NCBI RefSeq assembly: GCF_000337615.1 | Contig: NZ_AOII01000020.1 | Span: 75,847-115,099, forward strand | DNA: 39,253 nucleotides | From: Natrinema pallidum DSM 3751 | Lineage (GTDB): Archaea; Halobacteriota; Halobacteria; Halobacteriales; Natrialbaceae | Direction of reading: 5' to 3' | Shown: piece after piece, positions 15,853 to 22,738 of the stretch | How the letters are laid out: every line of letters begins with the position of its first letter | Position numbering within the stretch: position 1 is the stretch's first letter | Translations under genes and position numbers: made by a program | The notes under the pieces: generated by a model | Database searches by the model: none | What the model was told of the DNA's origin: nothing | The model's input: only the letters and a program-made list of their open reading frames with translations

Positions 15853-16869
15853 CTACTCGTCGTGGTCGGCGACCTTGACCAGTTGCTTCCCGATGTTGTC
15901 GCCCTCGAACAGTCCGAGGAACGCGTCGGGGGCGTTCTCGAACCCGTCGACGACGTTCTCGCGGTACTGTACGTCGCCGTTCCGAACGAACGTCGAGAGT
16001 CGCTCGAGCGCCTCACCCCACCGGGGCTGGTAGTCGCTGACGAGCAGACCCTCGACCGTCGCGCGGGACTCGATGAGTTTGGCGAGCTTTCGCGGCCCGG
16101 TCGGCACGTCGGTCTCGTTGTAGAGTGCGATCTGGCCGCAGACGGCGACGCGAGCGTCGACGTTCAGCCGGGGCCAGACGGCGTCGGTGATGGGGCCGCC
16201 GACGTTGTCGAAGTAGACATCGACGCCGTCCGGACAGGCCTCGTCGACCGCGGCGGCGAGGTCGTCGGTGTCCTTGTAGTTGATCGCGGCGTCGAAGCCG
16301 AGGTCGTCGGTGAGCCAGTCGATCTTCGCCTCGCTCCCGGCGGTACCGACCACTCGCGCACCCGACAGGCGGGCGAGTTGGCCGACGACGGAGCCGACCG
16401 CGCCCGCGGCCGCGGAGACGAAGACGGTGTCGCCGGGTTTCGGGTCACCGACATCGTTCAGGCCCCAGTAGGCCGTCACGCCGGGCATCCCGAGGACGCC
16501 CAGCGCCGTCGAGATCGGTCCGTGATCGGGGTTGACCCGCTGGAGTTCGTTCGCGTCCGCGACGGCGTGTTCCGCCCAGAGGAGTTCGCCGGTGACGATG
16601 TCCCCCGCGGAAAACTGGCCGGCGTTCGACTCGAGGACTTCGCCGACGACGCTGGCTTTCATCGGGTCGCCGACGTCCCAGGGCTCGGCGTACGATTCCG
16701 CATCCCGCATGCGCCCGCGCATGTACGGATCGACCGACTGATACAGCGTCTTGACGAGGACCTCCCCGTTGTCCGGTTCGGGGCGCTCGACGGTGACGAG
16801 TTCGAAGTTCTCTGCGGTCGGTTCACCGACTGGACGGCTGGCGAGTCGCCACTGTCTGGTTTCTGCCAT
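15853..16869 (-). CDS. NADPH-dependent oxidoreductase, zinc-free MDR (CurA/PTGR) type
   Basis: The protein is 338 aa from ATG 16869 (MAETRQWRLASRP). It begins with the MDR fold (substrate domain 1-125). YMRGRMRD is conserved in the prostaglandin reductase/CurA branch, the nucleotide-binding motif is VFVSAAAGAVGSVVGQLARLSGARVVG (AAxGxxG), and YFDNVGG and the EGLLVSDY end motif follow. These zinc-free enzymes reduce alpha,beta-unsaturated ketones or quinones with NADPH. A TATA element (TATATTT, 16897-16903) is about 31 nt upstream of the ATG, so the mRNA has almost no leader. Confidence 0.92.
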   Translation of the reverse strand: MAETRQWRLASRPVGEPTAENFELVTVERPEPDNGEVLVKTLYQSVDPYMRGRMRDAESYAEPWDVGDPMKASVVGEVLESNAGQFSAGDIVTGELLWAEHAVADANELQRVNPDHGPISTALGVLGMPGVTAYWGLNDVGDPKPGDTVFVSAAAGAVGSVVGQLARLSGARVVGTAGSEAKIDWLTDDLGFDAAINYKDTDDLAAAVDEACPDGVDVYFDNVGGPITDAVWPRLNVDARVAVCGQIALYNETDVPTGPRKLAKLIESRATVEGLLVSDYQPRWGEALERLSTFVRNGDVQYRENVVDGFENAPDAFLGLFEGDNIGKQLVKVADHDE

Positions 16870-17002
16870 ATGATGACATTGTCGCGCCCACACGAGTATA
16901 TTTGGCTCGCGGAACTTCGCGTCGTCGAGGAGGTTGAACGTCATCAGCCGGGCGGCCTCGGCGGGCTCGAACCTTTTTGATCACCGTTCGTGTAGATCCC
17001 GT

Positions 17003-17722
17003 ATGGGAACCGACCGCGGGATCCTCGAGCGGCTGCTCGCCGGGAACCGCCGCCACGTCGAGTCGCTGCCGGACGGCTACTTCGCCGACGTCCAGACGGG
17101 CCAGCACCCGAGCGTCGTCGCGGTCTGCTGTTCGGACTCGCGGGTCGCACACGAGGGGATGTGGGGTGTCGATCGGCCGGGGACGGTCTTTACGCCCAGC
17201 AACATCGGCAATCAGGTCTGGGACGACGACGGCGGGAATCGGATCATCGACGGCGGCGTCCTCTATCCGATCCACCACACCGGCACCGACGCCGTCGCCG
17301 TCGTCGGGCACACCGGCTGCGGTGCCGTTACTGCCGCCTACCAGGTCGCGACCGGCGCGGACCCGCCCGGGCCGCGGGGCGTCGATAAGTGGGTCGATAT
17401 GCTCATCCCCGTCGTCGAGGCAGCCCTCGAGAGCGACCGGATCGATCGCGAGGCAGCCGACGACACCGTGATCAACCAGCTCGTCGAGTACAACGTCGGC
17501 TATCAGGTCCGATCGCTCGGCGACGCCGACGCCGTTCCGGACCGCGTCGACACCTACGGATTCGTCTACGACTTTCAGGGCGTCTACGGCGACCGACCCG
17601 GGCGAACCTACCTCGTCACCGTCGACGGCGAGACTGCGCCCGACGCGCTCGCCGAACTGGTGCCGAACGGCTACGAGTCGGCGGTCGAGAGCCTGTTGTA
17701 CGGCGACGGGGCGGACGACTGA
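17003..17722 (+). CDS. Beta-carbonic anhydrase
   Basis: The protein is 239 aa from the ATG at 17003 (MGTDRGILERLLAGN). Beta-class zinc ligands are complete: C43, D45 and R47 in CCSDSR, then H103 and C106 in HTGC. It interconverts CO2 and bicarbonate in the cytoplasm. It converges on the dabBA operon with 21 bp between the stops, so both carbon-related units sit together. A T-rich TATA-like word (CCTTTTTGA) lies about 30 nt before the start. Some beta enzymes use D45 as a fourth zinc ligand at low pH, but nothing in the sequence decides this. Confidence 0.94.
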   Translation: MGTDRGILERLLAGNRRHVESLPDGYFADVQTGQHPSVVAVCCSDSRVAHEGMWGVDRPGTVFTPSNIGNQVWDDDGGNRIIDGGVLYPIHHTGTDAVAVVGHTGCGAVTAAYQVATGADPPGPRGVDKWVDMLIPVVEAALESDRIDREAADDTVINQLVEYNVGYQVRSLGDADAVPDRVDTYGFVYDFQGVYGDRPGRTYLVTVDGETAPDALAELVPNGYESAVESLLYGDGADD

Positions 17723-17743
17723 CCGCGACGGCCGGGCTCAGGC

Positions 17744-20194
17744 TCAGTCGTCGGCGGTCGACACCGCGACCGGCGTCGTCCGCTCCGGACCCGTCGCCCG
17801 TGCCCTCTCGCGGGTCCACTCGAGGTCGCCCGCGTAGTGGAACGGCTCGTTGTCTTGCTCGGGATCGACGACGGTCAGATCACCGATCCACCCGTTGTCG
17901 AGAAGCACCCGGACGTCCTCGTGGTCGCGGAGGATCTCGGTCACGCGCTCGAGCGGCGCGTGGATCACCGCGGTCAGGCGCAGCGGCTGGTGGAACGGGC
18001 GCTCGTCGTCGCGCTTGAGCGACTGCAGCGGAAGGCCGGTCAGCAGATCCCCGCCGTTACCCTGAACGACGCCGACATTACCCACCGGGTTCTGGGTGAC
18101 CTTCGAGCCGCTCCCGTAGGCGGCGTTGTCGACCGTCGCAAAGTAGTACTGGTTGTTGATCCACTGGGTGACCACGAGCGGGCCCGTCAGGATCGCCTCG
18201 AGGGCGTCGCCGTCCGGATCGACGGTCCAGTCGTAGGAGTGGAGGAACGCGCGGCCGTCGAGGTCTTGGTCGGCGGTCAGCTCGCGCGGGCCGATGACGA
18301 ACGAGGCGTTGCCGGCCAGTCCCCACTCGGGGCGGGTCTCGGCCCAGTCGGCCGCCTTGCGCTCGACTTCGTCGACGGCCGCCTCGCCGTCGGCCGACGC
18401 GGTGCGCTCGGCGGCGGCCCCGGCGCGGGCGCTGTCGAGGTCCGCACGGAGCGACGCGAGGTCCTCGCGGTGGCTCTCGGGGACGTCGTCGTCGAACAGC
18501 GTGATCTCGTCGGTCGTCGTGTTGTGTTCGCCCGCGAGGAAGACGGTATCCTCGGGGATGTCGATCCCGTGTTCGCGCAGCGCCGCCTTGACGTCCGGGT
18601 CGTTACAGATCGCCGCGAGGACGCGGGCGTTTGGTCCGCCGGGGTTGCCGGCGCAGGCCCCGCAGTCGAGGCTCGAGCCGAAGGGGTTGTTCGTCGTCTC
18701 GCTGGCGTGACCCGCGAAGACGACCAGCCGGGCGAACTCGGTCCAGCCCATGAGTTCGAAGGCGTTCCGAGCGTACTCGACTTTCGCCTCGTGGCTCAGC
18801 CCGTGCGGGAGGTCGCCGTCGGCGTGGTCGTGATCGTCGTAGGCGTCGTAGTCGACGGCGGGTGCGGTGACTTCCGGGACGCTCGGGACGCGGTCCGCGA
18901 TAGCGGACTCGAGCGTCGCGATCGCCGACGGTGACAGCGTCCGGGCGGTCATCGCCGACCCGTAGGCGCTGCCGGCTCCCTCGACGAAGGTGAAGGCGGC
19001 GACGAGGTTGGATTTGAGCGTCGTGAAGTGGTTGCGGGCGGCCGTAGCGAGCCCGGTCCAGCGATCGCGGGCGGCGGCCGGCTCGGCATCGGCGGCCCGA
19101 TCGACGATCCGATGTTCGGGGTCGACGATCGGCGGGCAGGCGTCGGTGTCGGCCGCGGCCTCGTAGCCGCGATGGCGCATCGGCACGCCGAAAAAGCCCG
19201 CGTAGCCGTGGGTCTCGTAGGGCCCCTGTGCCTCGATGTGGCGGCGAATCACTTCCGATCGGGTGTCGATACAGAACACGAGTTGGGCGGCCGGCCGATC
19301 GCCGCTGTCGGCGTTCGCGGGATCGGTCACGGCGTCGTCGATCCCGTCGAGGAGCCGCTCGCGGTAGCTCTTTTCCCAGGCAGTTAGCCAGATTTCGGGC
19401 AGCGGAACCTCGTCGGCGTCGTCACCGTCGGTCTCGCGGCCGGCGTCGAGTTCGATCGGCGCGTCGAGCAGGTCCGCGAGCGTTAGCCGCACCGCGAGGT
19501 ACTGGGCCAGTGTGATCGGATACTCCGCCTGCCACGGATCGGCACCGTCGTCGGTCCGCTGTTTGACGAACCCGCTCCAGCCCGGCAGCGCCGCGAGGTG
19601 GGCCTCGAGAATCTCGACCCAGCGCCCTTCGGGGTAGTCGTCGAGGACCGACTCGAGCGCGTCGACGGCCGTCTCGGGGAGGTCGTCGGCGTCGGCGGGG
19701 CCGGGCACGTCGGCGTCGTGGGGGGCCACCGCGCGCCAGGCCTGATAGAACCCGTCCTCGCGGTTGGGCATCGGCCACTTGGCTCGGCCCTCGTCGAGGA
19801 AGGCCGCAAGCCACTTCGAGAGAACCCGATCGACGGTCTCGGTCGCGTCGTCGGGGTCGGCGGCCGTATGCTCCGCTTCGGTCTCGGCCAGTTCCTCGAG
19901 CAGCGTCTCGGGGTCGCGATCGATTCCGTGGGCCGCCAGTTCCGCCCGGAGCGTCTCGGCGTCGATCCGGCCCGACTCCCAGGCGCGGCGGAAGACCGAC
20001 GGGTGTGGGTAGCCCCGGCCGCCGAACAGCTCCTCGGCCTCCGCGACGGCCCGGTGGAACGGTTCGTCCTCGAACCCCGAGAGGGGGTTGGCCGTGACGA
20101 ACGAGTGCAGCGGCCAGACCGAACCGATGCGGTCGGCGGCGCGGTCGATGTGCTCCTCGATGCGACGGTCGTCGTGTGATTCCTTACGCGTCAT
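17744..20194 (-). CDS. dabA: DabA: inorganic carbon uptake subunit (DUF2309/UPF0753)
   Basis: This 816-aa soluble protein has beta-CA-like active-site residues. C308 and D310 lie in CIDTRSE, and H496 and C511 lie in GHASETTNNPFGSSLDCGACAG. The 15-residue H-to-C spacing equals that of the characterised DabA. DabA with DabB converts CO2 to bicarbonate unidirectionally at the inner membrane face, driven by ion flow, and so accumulates inorganic carbon. The start ATG is at 20194, with the Shine-Dalgarno GGAGG at 20201-20205 (minus) 6 nt upstream. It overlaps the dabB stop codon by 11 bp, consistent with translational coupling. Confidence 0.93.
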   Translation of the reverse strand: MTRKESHDDRRIEEHIDRAADRIGSVWPLHSFVTANPLSGFEDEPFHRAVAEAEELFGGRGYPHPSVFRRAWESGRIDAETLRAELAAHGIDRDPETLLEELAETEAEHTAADPDDATETVDRVLSKWLAAFLDEGRAKWPMPNREDGFYQAWRAVAPHDADVPGPADADDLPETAVDALESVLDDYPEGRWVEILEAHLAALPGWSGFVKQRTDDGADPWQAEYPITLAQYLAVRLTLADLLDAPIELDAGRETDGDDADEVPLPEIWLTAWEKSYRERLLDGIDDAVTDPANADSGDRPAAQLVFCIDTRSEVIRRHIEAQGPYETHGYAGFFGVPMRHRGYEAAADTDACPPIVDPEHRIVDRAADAEPAAARDRWTGLATAARNHFTTLKSNLVAAFTFVEGAGSAYGSAMTARTLSPSAIATLESAIADRVPSVPEVTAPAVDYDAYDDHDHADGDLPHGLSHEAKVEYARNAFELMGWTEFARLVVFAGHASETTNNPFGSSLDCGACAGNPGGPNARVLAAICNDPDVKAALREHGIDIPEDTVFLAGEHNTTTDEITLFDDDVPESHREDLASLRADLDSARAGAAAERTASADGEAAVDEVERKAADWAETRPEWGLAGNASFVIGPRELTADQDLDGRAFLHSYDWTVDPDGDALEAILTGPLVVTQWINNQYYFATVDNAAYGSGSKVTQNPVGNVGVVQGNGGDLLTGLPLQSLKRDDERPFHQPLRLTAVIHAPLERVTEILRDHEDVRVLLDNGWIGDLTVVDPEQDNEPFHYAGDLEWTRERARATGPERTTPVAVSTADD

Positions 20195-21680
20195 TGTACT
20201 CCTCCTTGGCGGTGAGGACGGTCGACGGATCGGGTTGGGAGACGTTCAGCAAGGCGACGTAGAGGCGTTCGCTGGAGCGGTACCAGCCCAGTTCCGCGAT
20301 GAGGTAGGCCCCGGCGAAGAGGGCGACGACGAGGTAGTGGACGGGGGTCATCTCGGTCGAGACGTGGGTCATCGGGACGCCGGACAGCATCGACGAGACG
20401 GCGTTGAACAGCACGGCGTAGCCGCCGATGGCGGTCAGGACGACCAGCGGGACGCTGACGAACCGGACCGCCGTCGGCAGGGTCGAGCGCCGGAGGATGT
20501 CCCGAGCCGCGGTTAGCGTCGTCAGGACTACGACAAGCGTCAGGATCATCCCGCTGTTCAGCGTCAGGCTCGTCGCCTTCCCGGTGAGGACGCCAAAGAG
20601 CGCGCCGCCGCCGACGGCCGTCACGAGGCTGACGGCGATCCCGGAGAAGCCGAGTTCGGTATCCCCCGCGTCTTTGGGAGCCGCACGCTCGACGCCCGCC
20701 CCGGACGAGAGGAAGAGATACGCCTTGTAGAAGCCATGCAGGATGAGGTGGGCGATGGCCGCGGCGAAAAAGCCGAGCCCACATTGCAGTATCATAAAGC
20801 CCATCTGAGCGATCGTCGAGCACCCGAGTTTGCGCTTGACATCCGTCTGGACCAGGATCATCGCCTGTCCGAGCAGGGCGCTGCCCGCGCCGACGAGGGC
20901 GATCGCCGACATCACGACGAGTCGATCGCCGACCAACGGTGCGAATCGGGTCAACAGAATCCCGCCCGCGTTGACGAACCCGGCGTGCATCAGGGCGGAC
21001 GCGGGCGTGGGGGCCGTCATCGACGACAGCAGCCAGTTGTGGAAGGGAAAGAGCGCCGACTGGATGACGGCCGCGAGGACGATCCCCGCGGCGGCGACGA
21101 GTCCGACCGGCCGCGAGACCCCCGACACCCCCTCGAGAACGCCGGTGAGCCTTGTCGCACCGGTCGCCCAGACCAGCACCGCGACGGAGCCGGCCAGCAA
21201 TGCGCTGCTGGCGAGGAAGTACCGGCGGGCGACGCGGCCGGCGGCCCGGGCCTGGGACCAGTCGCGAACGTGGCCGATCAGCGAGGCCATCAGCAGGCCC
21301 ATCGCCAGCCACGCGGCCACGAACAGCGCGACGTGGTTCGCCGCGGTCATCGTCATGACGGCGACGGTGAACCCGAGGACGCGGGCGAAGAAGCGATCGA
21401 TATCGCTGTCGCCGGCCATGTAGCGCCGCGAGTAGCTGTGGACGATCCCGCTGAAGAAGGTCACTACGACCCACATGACCGCGGTCAGTCCGTCGATCCG
21501 CAGGAACGGCGAGAGTTCCCAGCCGGCCCCCCCTCGAACCGTCAGCGCGAGAACCACGAAGCTGGCCAGAAAGAGCGTCCAGACCGCCCAAGTCGACGCT
21601 CGCGGCACGGCCGAACGCGGCGGCGTCGGTTCGGGGCGCTGTGCGATATCGTCGTCGATCGTTGCTGTGTCCTCAGTCAT
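20184..21680 (-). CDS. dabB: DabB: proton- or cation-conducting membrane subunit (NuoL-like)
   Basis: The ATG at 21680 (MTEDTATIDDDIAQRP) gives 498 aa. The longer ORF upstream runs through the leader and was rejected. At least 12 hydrophobic segments are visible, with the NuoL/MrpA signatures VTFFSGIVHSYSRRYM, ALMHAGFVNAGG and a conserved Lys-rich segment VQTDVKRKLGCSTIAQMGF. In DAB systems this subunit conducts the cation that powers DabA. It overlaps dabA. A TATA-like element at about 21781-21790 leaves a leader of about 77 nt. A 6-bp stem lies within that leader. Confidence 0.92.
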   Translation of the reverse strand: MTEDTATIDDDIAQRPEPTPPRSAVPRASTWAVWTLFLASFVVLALTVRGGAGWELSPFLRIDGLTAVMWVVVTFFSGIVHSYSRRYMAGDSDIDRFFARVLGFTVAVMTMTAANHVALFVAAWLAMGLLMASLIGHVRDWSQARAAGRVARRYFLASSALLAGSVAVLVWATGATRLTGVLEGVSGVSRPVGLVAAAGIVLAAVIQSALFPFHNWLLSSMTAPTPASALMHAGFVNAGGILLTRFAPLVGDRLVVMSAIALVGAGSALLGQAMILVQTDVKRKLGCSTIAQMGFMILQCGLGFFAAAIAHLILHGFYKAYLFLSSGAGVERAAPKDAGDTELGFSGIAVSLVTAVGGGALFGVLTGKATSLTLNSGMILTLVVVLTTLTAARDILRRSTLPTAVRFVSVPLVVLTAIGGYAVLFNAVSSMLSGVPMTHVSTEMTPVHYLVVALFAGAYLIAELGWYRSSERLYVALLNVSQPDPSTVLTAKEEYNDA

Positions 21681-21698
21681 GTCTCGGAGTCGACCAGC

Positions 21699-21714
21699 AC
21701 GGGATCGGTCCCGT
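21699..21714 (-). promoter_or_regulatory. Short hairpin in the dabB mRNA leader
   Basis: ACGGGA (21699-21704) and TCCCGT (21709-21714) form a perfect 6-bp stem with a 4-nt loop. It sits 19-34 nt before the dabB start codon. The leader is predicted to be about 77 nt, from the TATA-like word at 21781-21790. An 8-bp palindrome GTTCGAAC (21797-21804) lies just upstream of that TATA word. A regulatory role is possible but not shown. Confidence 0.45.
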
Positions 21715-21780
21715 CGCGACGTGTCGTTCTCGGCAACACTTGCGCAACCGGTCGCATCTAACCCATATGTGAACAGAGCG

Positions 21781-21790
21781 ATTATTATAG
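21781..21790 (-). promoter_or_regulatory. TATA box proposed for dabBA
   Basis: ATTATTATAG on the plus strand reads CTATAATAAT on the minus strand. It lies about 100 nt before the dabB start, so transcription would begin near 21757 and the mRNA would have a real 5' leader, unlike most genes here. Confidence 0.55.
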
Positions 21791-21974
21791 CCTTCGGTTC
21801 GAACAAATCGTTCGCCGTTCGGCGAGGCAGAACGTCACGACGTTCGTAGCCGCCCGTTCGAGCGCCGAGCCGGCGGCTTTCGGGTGACACGCATGCGGCG
21901 TCCTCCGGCTGTCGATACGAGGACCGCGAGTCCGGACTCGAGTCGTTCGTCGGGGTCGGCTTCCCCAAGTCGCG

Positions 21975-22436
21975 TTAGGAAGAGAACTCGTCGAACGAGG
22001 TCGATCGGTGGCTGCGTACGAGTACTTCGTCGGTGATCGTCAGCCCCATGTCCGCGAGCTGCTGTGCGATCGGCGTGACATCTCTGTCGTTCTCGACGAC
22101 CACGGTCACGAGGAGGTTCTGCTCGCCCGTGATCAGTTCCTGCACCGAGACGACGCCCGCAACCTCGAGCAGATCGTCGATGTACGCCCCTCGATCGGGG
22201 ATCGGTGCCGTACAGAACAGCAGCATCCGGATCGGATAGCCGGATTTCGTGTAGTCAATGTTCGCGCTGTAGCCCTTGATGACGCCCTCGGACTCCAGTC
22301 GCTGAATGCGCTTGCGGACCGTGCTCGAGGAGGCGTCGGTCCGATCGGCGATCTCGCTCGAGGAGAGGTTCCGCGCTTCCTCCTGTAATGCATAGAGGAT
22401 CTCCCGGTCGACCGCGTCGAGCTCGTACTCCGCCAT
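21975..22436 (-). CDS. Lrp/AsnC-family transcription regulator
   Basis: This 153-aa protein has an N-terminal helix-turn-helix (about residues 6-55; SSSEIADRTDASSSTVRKRIQRLESEGVIKGY) and a C-terminal RAM/AsnC effector domain with the hinge YPIRMLLFCTAP. The family forms octamers that sense amino acids or related metabolites. The start is ATG at 22436. TATA word CTTATAG (22459-22465, minus) is about 26 nt upstream, so the mRNA is leaderless. It lies on the same strand 294 bp before dabB and divergent from the small membrane protein. An inverted repeat in that divergent interval may be its own operator. Confidence 0.93.
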   Translation of the reverse strand: MAEYELDAVDREILYALQEEARNLSSSEIADRTDASSSTVRKRIQRLESEGVIKGYSANIDYTKSGYPIRMLLFCTAPIPDRGAYIDDLLEVAGVVSVQELITGEQNLLVTVVVENDRDVTPIAQQLADMGLTITDEVLVRSHRSTSFDEFSS

Positions 22437-22468
22437 ACGCGTTCGTTGCCGCGGCCGCTATAAGGTAC

Positions 22469-22509
22469 TTCGGCTCCCGAGGCTTCGAATACTTATACTG
22501 GGAGCCGAA
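22469..22509. promoter_or_regulatory. 10-bp perfect inverted repeat spanning the divergent promoters
   Basis: TTCGGCTCCC (22469-22478) and GGGAGCCGAA (22500-22509) are perfect inverted copies, with centres 31 bp apart. The right half lies just past the TATA word of the small membrane gene (ACTTATACTG, 22491-22500). The left half lies just upstream of the TATA word of the lrp gene. This placement suits a regulator, most simply the Lrp protein itself. Confidence 0.7.
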
Positions 22510-22519
22510 AGGGACAGGC

Positions 22520-22738
22520 ATGCGCGAACGACTCGAGTCGGATATCGGCTTCTACTACGCCGTCGGCGGCTTCATCATCGCCGTGTTCGTCGTCGGGCTG
22601 GCGGCCTTTGCCGCGCTCAACCCCGACGGCGTGGGAACGGTGGAGTTGGTCGGACTCACCGGCGGCTTCTTCCTGTTCATGCTCGTGTACTTCATCGCTA
22701 TTTCGGTCCAGCGACTCGAGGACGGCGACAGCATCTGA
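22520..22738 (+). CDS. Small two-segment membrane protein
   Basis: The 72-aa protein starts at ATG 22520 (MRERLESDIGFYYAVGG). The reading frame extends further upstream, but TATA word ACTTATACT (22491-22499) lies about 25 nt before this ATG and fits leaderless translation. Two hydrophobic segments (about residues 12-32 and 42-62) are joined by a short acidic loop and followed by a charged tail. No family is recognised. It is divergent to lrp and shares its promoter interval, so the two may be co-regulated. Confidence 0.78.
   Translation: MRERLESDIGFYYAVGGFIIAVFVVGLAAFAALNPDGVGTVELVGLTGGFFLFMLVYFIAISVQRLEDGDSI

Follow-up and report, generated by a model that had tools for sequence, protein, structure and literature searches.

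The closest described system to the locus analysed here is DAB2 of Halothiobacillus neapolitanus (9rd0), a two-subunit complex whose zinc site, membrane finger and proton channel have been characterised by mutation (PMC13144422). A comparable, heterotrophic supply of bicarbonate is provided by MpsAB(C) of Staphylococcus and the YbcC-type operons of Bacillus, and carbonic anhydrase (CA) and MpsAB were found able to replace each other (PMC6689103). In archaea, YbcC/NuoL operons were reported in 2017 from haloarchaea only (PMC5700660), and in 2021, HVO_2410 and HVO_2411 of Haloferax volcanii were predicted from homology to be DabA and DabB (PMC8305020). A haloarchaeal DAB has, thus, been predicted before; the passages of the 2021 source on this prediction make no mention of an adjoining CA or of an Lrp gene.

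According to a published argument, a free CA would drain a bicarbonate pump, so that the two should not coexist; MpsAB and CA were reported to occur together only rarely in Firmicutes, and staphylococci drew no benefit from their co-expression (PMC8552792). Combining DAB with CA did no harm or was of help in E. coli and Cupriavidus; co-expression of DAB2 and CA improved E. coli growth, and futile cycling was predicted at extreme levels only (PMC9894237). The leak puzzle, which an earlier note had raised for the present locus, had already been published in the first of these studies, with a partial answer in the second. In the literature searched, to which the original 2019 DAB paper did not belong, no description of a CA or Lrp linkage in haloarchaea was found.

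The dab locus of Natrinema pallidum

The window, i.e., the whole stretch of DNA analysed, comprises 39,253 nucleotides of Natrinema pallidum DSM 3751 (NCBI RefSeq assembly GCF_000337615.1, contig NZ_AOII01000020.1, positions 75,847 to 115,099). The host genome has 3.9 Mb, and the closest named DabA relatives are Natrinema species at ~90% identity. The following features were assigned:

15853–16944, minus strand: curcumin-reductase-like oxidoreductase, divergent to the CA gene (NF058644, E=9e-124, under its cut-off; synteny)
17003–17722, plus strand: beta-CA, 239 aa (ATG 17003, TGA to 17722; PF00484, E=2.1e-23)
17744–20194, minus strand: dabA, 816 aa (stop at 17744, ATG at 20194; PF10070, E=1.7e-269; 9rd0_A, E=1.7e-112)
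20184–21680, minus strand: dabB, 498 aa (stop at 20184, ATG at 21680; PF00361, E=2.2e-39; best PDB match 9rd0_B, E=1.6e-36)
21780–21789, minus strand: TATA-like element TATAATAATC adjoining the palindrome, candidate dabB promoter judged by conservation in alignment A1
21800–21814, no strand: palindrome CGAAC-N5-GTTCG between lrp and dabB, candidate operator, conserved in the six-sequence Natrinema alignment A1
21975–22436, minus strand: Lrp/AsnC-type regulator gene (lrp), 5' of dabB on the same strand (HTH_AsnC-type, E=6.3e-10)
22388–22738, plus strand: small membrane-protein gene, right-hand flank of the cassette (synteny)

The earlier note had recognised a DAB system and a beta-CA in a haloarchaeon, and this identification was upheld by the Pfam and PDB matches, as were its coordinates for dabA, dabB and the CA gene, the 11-bp overlap of dabB and dabA (20184–20194) and the 21 bases (17723–17743) separating the stops of the convergent CA and dabA genes. 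Its interval, ending at 21680, was correct for these three genes and omitted the conserved Lrp/AsnC gene. The PF10070 match of DabA is full-length (profile 1–747 of 747), and the best PDB matches of DabA and DabB are the DabA2 and DabB2 subunits of the Halothiobacillus complex. DabB does not lie in a complex I gene cluster, its neighbour being dabA. On sequence grounds, DAB family membership is secure and the predicted fold is settled by comparison with the solved DAB2 complex; the mechanism outlined below is transferred from DAB2. Searching the cassette and the flanking genes scanned for MpsC (PF10057) gave no match, which sets the window apart from MpsAB(C), where a Bacillus locus matches MpsC. 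Family profile searches with the small membrane-protein gene likewise gave no match, and synteny showed the oxidoreductase gene to mark this flank in dab-bearing and dab-less relatives alike.

The window shares with DAB2 the two subunits in the same order, the zinc site, the D/R dyad, the finger glutamate and the channel residues. Residue mapping revealed DabA C308, D310, H496 and C511 to correspond to C351, D353, H524 and C539 of DabA2, and R312, E405 and L626 to correspond to R355, E444 and L658. Accordingly named, C308, H496 and C511 are the Cys/His/Cys zinc ligands, D310 and R312 form the dyad, E405 is the membrane-finger glutamate, and L626 is the residue replacing the usual transition-state stabiliser. 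All seven are invariant in haloarchaea wherever readable, with 127 of 128 rows scorable and the rows lacking readable positions being two halves of one locus split at a contig end. The earlier note would have taken alteration of C308, D310, H496 or C511 in relatives as evidence against its reading; no variation was found there in the scorable rows. In DabB, the channel residues S228, H232, K282, S288, H311, H315 and K319 are kept in 127/127 haloarchaeal loci. The residues of the zinc site, finger and channel that impair DAB2 function when mutated are, hence, all invariant in haloarchaea, which supports the DAB reading.

The window differs from DAB2 in the DabB ion pair, where K235/D185 and R182 of DabB2 are replaced by Q207/S159 and L156. 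Across haloarchaea, Gln takes the place of the complex-I-like lysine in 126/127 loci, Ser, Thr or Gly mostly that of the aspartate, and a hydrophobic residue that of the arginine. The complex-I-like Lys/Asp pair, including that defined by NuoL K229/D178, is absent from haloarchaeal DabB, a pair reported to be common among DabB2 homologues and not strictly defining. A loss unique to haloarchaea was rejected: bacteria have K, R, A or P in place of this lysine, a Bacillus DabB lacks the ion-pair lysine as well, and the loss, therefore, does not exclude DAB membership. Judged from the aligned residues, it is a feature of the haloarchaeal clade but not unprecedented. Alanine mutants of DAB2 at K235/D185 showed a growth yield reduced by 30–60%, with function not abolished (PMC13144422). 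By analogy with this lowered yield, energy coupling of haloarchaeal DabB, which lacks the pair, may differ from that of DAB2.

The missing charged pair, in haloarchaea and in a Bacillus DabB, would also suit a complex that mainly handles ions or pH, sodium-coupled as argued for MpsAB, and yields bicarbonate as a side product, and brines provide a large sodium gradient. We regard this as very improbable, since none of the loci read departs from the conserved proton-channel residues or DabA zinc site, and DAB2 is sodium-independent (PMC13144422).

The CA of the window meets the C-x-D-x-R and H-x-x-C motifs, with zinc ligands C43, H103 and C106 and a catalytic dyad D45/R47, residues that are conserved in canonical haloarchaeal CAs. 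Inactivation of this CA was, therefore, rejected; by its motifs, the protein is an ordinary beta-CA, predicted to be active. It shows no signal peptide by eye and is presumably cytosolic. Such a free beta-CA next door distinguishes the window from DAB2, whose CA is carboxysomal.

A further difference from DAB2 is the Lrp/AsnC-type gene beside dabB. In 121/126 haloarchaeal dab loci, dabB is preceded by an Lrp/AsnC gene of the same orientation, and among the five loci without this arrangement, at least one (L164) starts at a contig end. It is, thus, a conserved third member of the dab cassette that the earlier note had overlooked. The palindrome at 21800–21814 is the sole exact copy in the window, with none at the CA gene; an exact copy near dabB was found in 29/127 loci, mostly of one family, versus 3% of random windows. 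It may be the operator of the dab-linked Lrp protein, by which dab would be controlled. With 62 copies genome-wide, it need not be specific to this protein. An amidohydrolase-like gene between lrp and dabB was observed in L080, L095, L106, L258, L259 and probably other loci. This ~1-kb gene, present in many genomes, was considered as another CA and dismissed, the readable frames inspected and the annotation pointing to an amidohydrolase.

Co-occurrence of DAB and CA and the proposed bicarbonate supply

The earlier note had suggested surveying which haloarchaea keep dab together with CA. In 194 haloarchaeal genomes with a completeness of at least 90%, DabA was found in 125 and a beta-CA in 175, unlinked CAs being less well sampled outside Natrialbaceae; 108 genomes have both, 17 DabA alone, 67 CA alone and two neither. 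DAB with CA is the rule among haloarchaeal DabA carriers (108/125) and not the peculiarity of a single genome, in contrast to Firmicutes, where MpsAB and CA are reportedly seldom together (PMC8552792). CA is missing from 17/125 genomes with DabA versus 2/69 without (Fisher p=0.02, ignoring shared ancestry). CA absence is, thus, concentrated in DabA carriers (17/19 genomes without CA), which is what a DAB able to replace CA would lead one to expect.

We consider it probable that a regulated DAB pump and a basal CA jointly sustain bicarbonate for carboxylases. According to this proposal, lrp-dabB-dabA (17744–22436) would encode a regulated DAB complex in which protons flow through DabB down the proton-motive force, and DabA, via its membrane finger (E405), would use this flow to hydrate CO2 at the buried zinc site, releasing HCO3- into the cytoplasm. 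The adjoining beta-CA would act as the basal equilibrating enzyme and the dab cassette as an accessory supply gained or lost beside it; together, they would hold a cytosolic CO2/HCO3- pool feeding bicarbonate-using carboxylases when CO2 is scarce, with loss through CA being affordable at modest expression. Pumping by haloarchaeal DAB and a benefit of the CA pairing are assumed by analogy with studied systems: the helpful co-expression of DAB2 and CA in E. coli (PMC9894237) counts for the partnership and the absent benefit of MpsAB plus CA in staphylococci (PMC8552792) against it.

An anaplerotic supply of carboxylases, as put forward in the earlier note, is plausible insofar as the host genome has a PEP carboxylase and two acyl-CoA-type carboxyltransferase carboxylases; the DAB activity in this proposal is a prediction. 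The low CO2 solubility of brine, named there as the cause, may be the reason. PEP carboxylase is present in 171/194 haloarchaea and associated with DabA at p of about 0.02, ignoring shared ancestry. RuBisCO (69/194 genomes) shows no DabA association (47/125 with DabA, 22/69 without; p=0.44) and was rejected as a general reason for the pump.

Two gene placements were observed besides. A RuBisCO-family gene lies ~10–24 kb from dabA in five genomes (G075, G112, G077, G157 and G125). In a single case (L146, G033:C1:262489-269825), a PEP carboxylase gene ends ~2.4 kb from the dabA start, which is in line with an anaplerotic role.

Most haloarchaea with DabA, thus, have both the pump and the CA that was argued to drain it, in many cases as neighbours and as the outcome of more than one pairing event, which makes genetically tractable haloarchaea a direct test bed for that argument. 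All four genotypes (both, either, neither) already exist naturally.

Linkage of dab and CA and gain or loss of the cassette

In 38/126 haloarchaeal loci, dab has a canonical CA gene no more than 3 kb away, versus ~0.6 loci expected by chance, an expectation that treats all 126 loci as independent draws; another six loci have a CA at 3–7 kb. The majority of the 38 show the convergent Natrialbaceae arrangement, so that these loci do not stand for as many separate events. The DabA tree requires 12 changes (gains or losses) of the linked/unlinked label, and the CA tree five changes of the convergent label, at least four of the latter forced by well-supported branches; both trees were quick or FastTree reconstructions with weak deep branches. 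Convergent CAs of L179 and L186 (another family) and of L153 fall outside the Natrialbaceae CA clade. Four arrangements were found: CA and dab convergent, CA and dab divergent, and CA on the dab strand, either directly downstream or upstream. In L103, L123 and L124, the CA gene follows dabA directly on the same strand at 80–91 bp; these and the upstream cases suggest joint transcription there. We conclude that the DAB–CA pairing is genuine, that it is general among haloarchaea, and that it evolved repeatedly.

A bacterial parallel was found on the Mycolicibacterium plasmid NZ_CP122998.1, where DAB genes and a canonical beta-CA with intact motifs share one neighbourhood; it differs in being a same-strand row (dabB-dabA-regulator-CA) with a different small regulator gene. 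As a separate observation, L014, a MAG labelled uncultured proteobacterium, holds dabBA near the haloarchaeal type (53% identity), representing either a transfer or a mislabelled contig.

The Natrialbaceae locus runs from ABC genes through the reductase, CA and small membrane genes to the cupin gene; lrp-dabB-dabA is inserted beside CA and read from the other strand. Of 20 relatives without DabA that were read, 19 have the orthologous CA (59–76% identity to the window CA) and one a CA of another lineage (43%). In most of them, the flanking genes are recognisable around CA while lrp, dabB and dabA are all absent, the small membrane gene commonly being the next recognised CA neighbour. In some dab-bearing relatives, this gene lies between CA and dabA and not after lrp, indicating either repeated placement of the cassette or a rearrangement of genes. 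The set lrp-dabB-dabA, thus, behaves as a gain/loss cassette, gained or lost as a block. Since relatives lacking dab retain CA at this position, the CA gene of the window does not belong to the dab transcription unit.

Such behaviour could reflect passive linkage, with the CA neighbourhood serving as a tolerant landing site for lrp-dabBA and nothing shared beyond dispensability; gain or loss as a block and the derivation of the Natrialbaceae pairings mostly from one or few events fit this reading. It is, nevertheless, improbable, considering that CAs of different lineages have become paired with dab, in different orientations and in different families, that the actinobacterial row exists, and that linkage far exceeds the chance expectation.

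Another reading treats DAB and CA as alternatives, CA working at plentiful CO2 and an Lrp-controlled DAB at scarce CO2, never both high together, with linkage only easing coordinate control or joint transfer. The facing, separate transcription units of the window, the dedicated regulator gene beside dabB, a candidate operator not found at CA, the prevalence of DabA among CA-less genomes, and G185 of the Natrialbaceae, which has the dab cassette at the locus and no beta-CA found anywhere in its genome, agree with it; the same-strand CAs downstream of dabA or upstream of dab speak against it, and we regard it as rather unlikely. Joint maintenance of bicarbonate by pump and basal CA is kept as the preferred reading.

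Degenerate CA-like proteins at dab loci

At seven dab loci, CA-like matches were found that are just 25–36% identical to the window CA. Their ligand positions C, H and C are kept and the C-x-D-x-R dyad is gone, the L096 copy being truncated. A profile search revealed such degenerate CA genes in 13/391 haloarchaea from 11 genera (L101:11437-12132; L112:11285-11989; L098:4697-5401; L164:203-904; L192:5379-6095; L159:4515-5282; L096; L248, L249, L251 and L255–L257). Each of the 13 precedes dabB in the same orientation, and at least one is separated from it by a wider interval that contains another gene; the window has no such degenerate gene. A PDB search with the profile gave zero matches at E 0.001. 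In G021, G325 and G062, a stop falls inside the matched stretch, for which decay, an error of assembly or the choice of start site may be responsible.

In Bacillus sp. MUM 116, a small protein encoded after dabA and MpsC (L036:9143-9637) has lost the zinc ligands and is related (pairwise E=4e-17) to a canonical beta-CA encoded 1.6 kb further on. Taken together, these relationships suggest that CA-family proteins, active or not, were repeatedly recruited to DAB loci. A tentative extension is that selection acts jointly on DAB and a partner from the beta-CA family, the partner in some lineages being a zinc-binding, catalytically dead CA that senses bicarbonate/CO2 or tunes DAB, and that of the window still being an active enzyme. 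The degenerate CA beside dabB in several families would, then, be a concrete candidate for a regulatory subunit. The copy of Halorussus pelagicus (WP_128478739.1) is annotated plainly as carbonic anhydrase.
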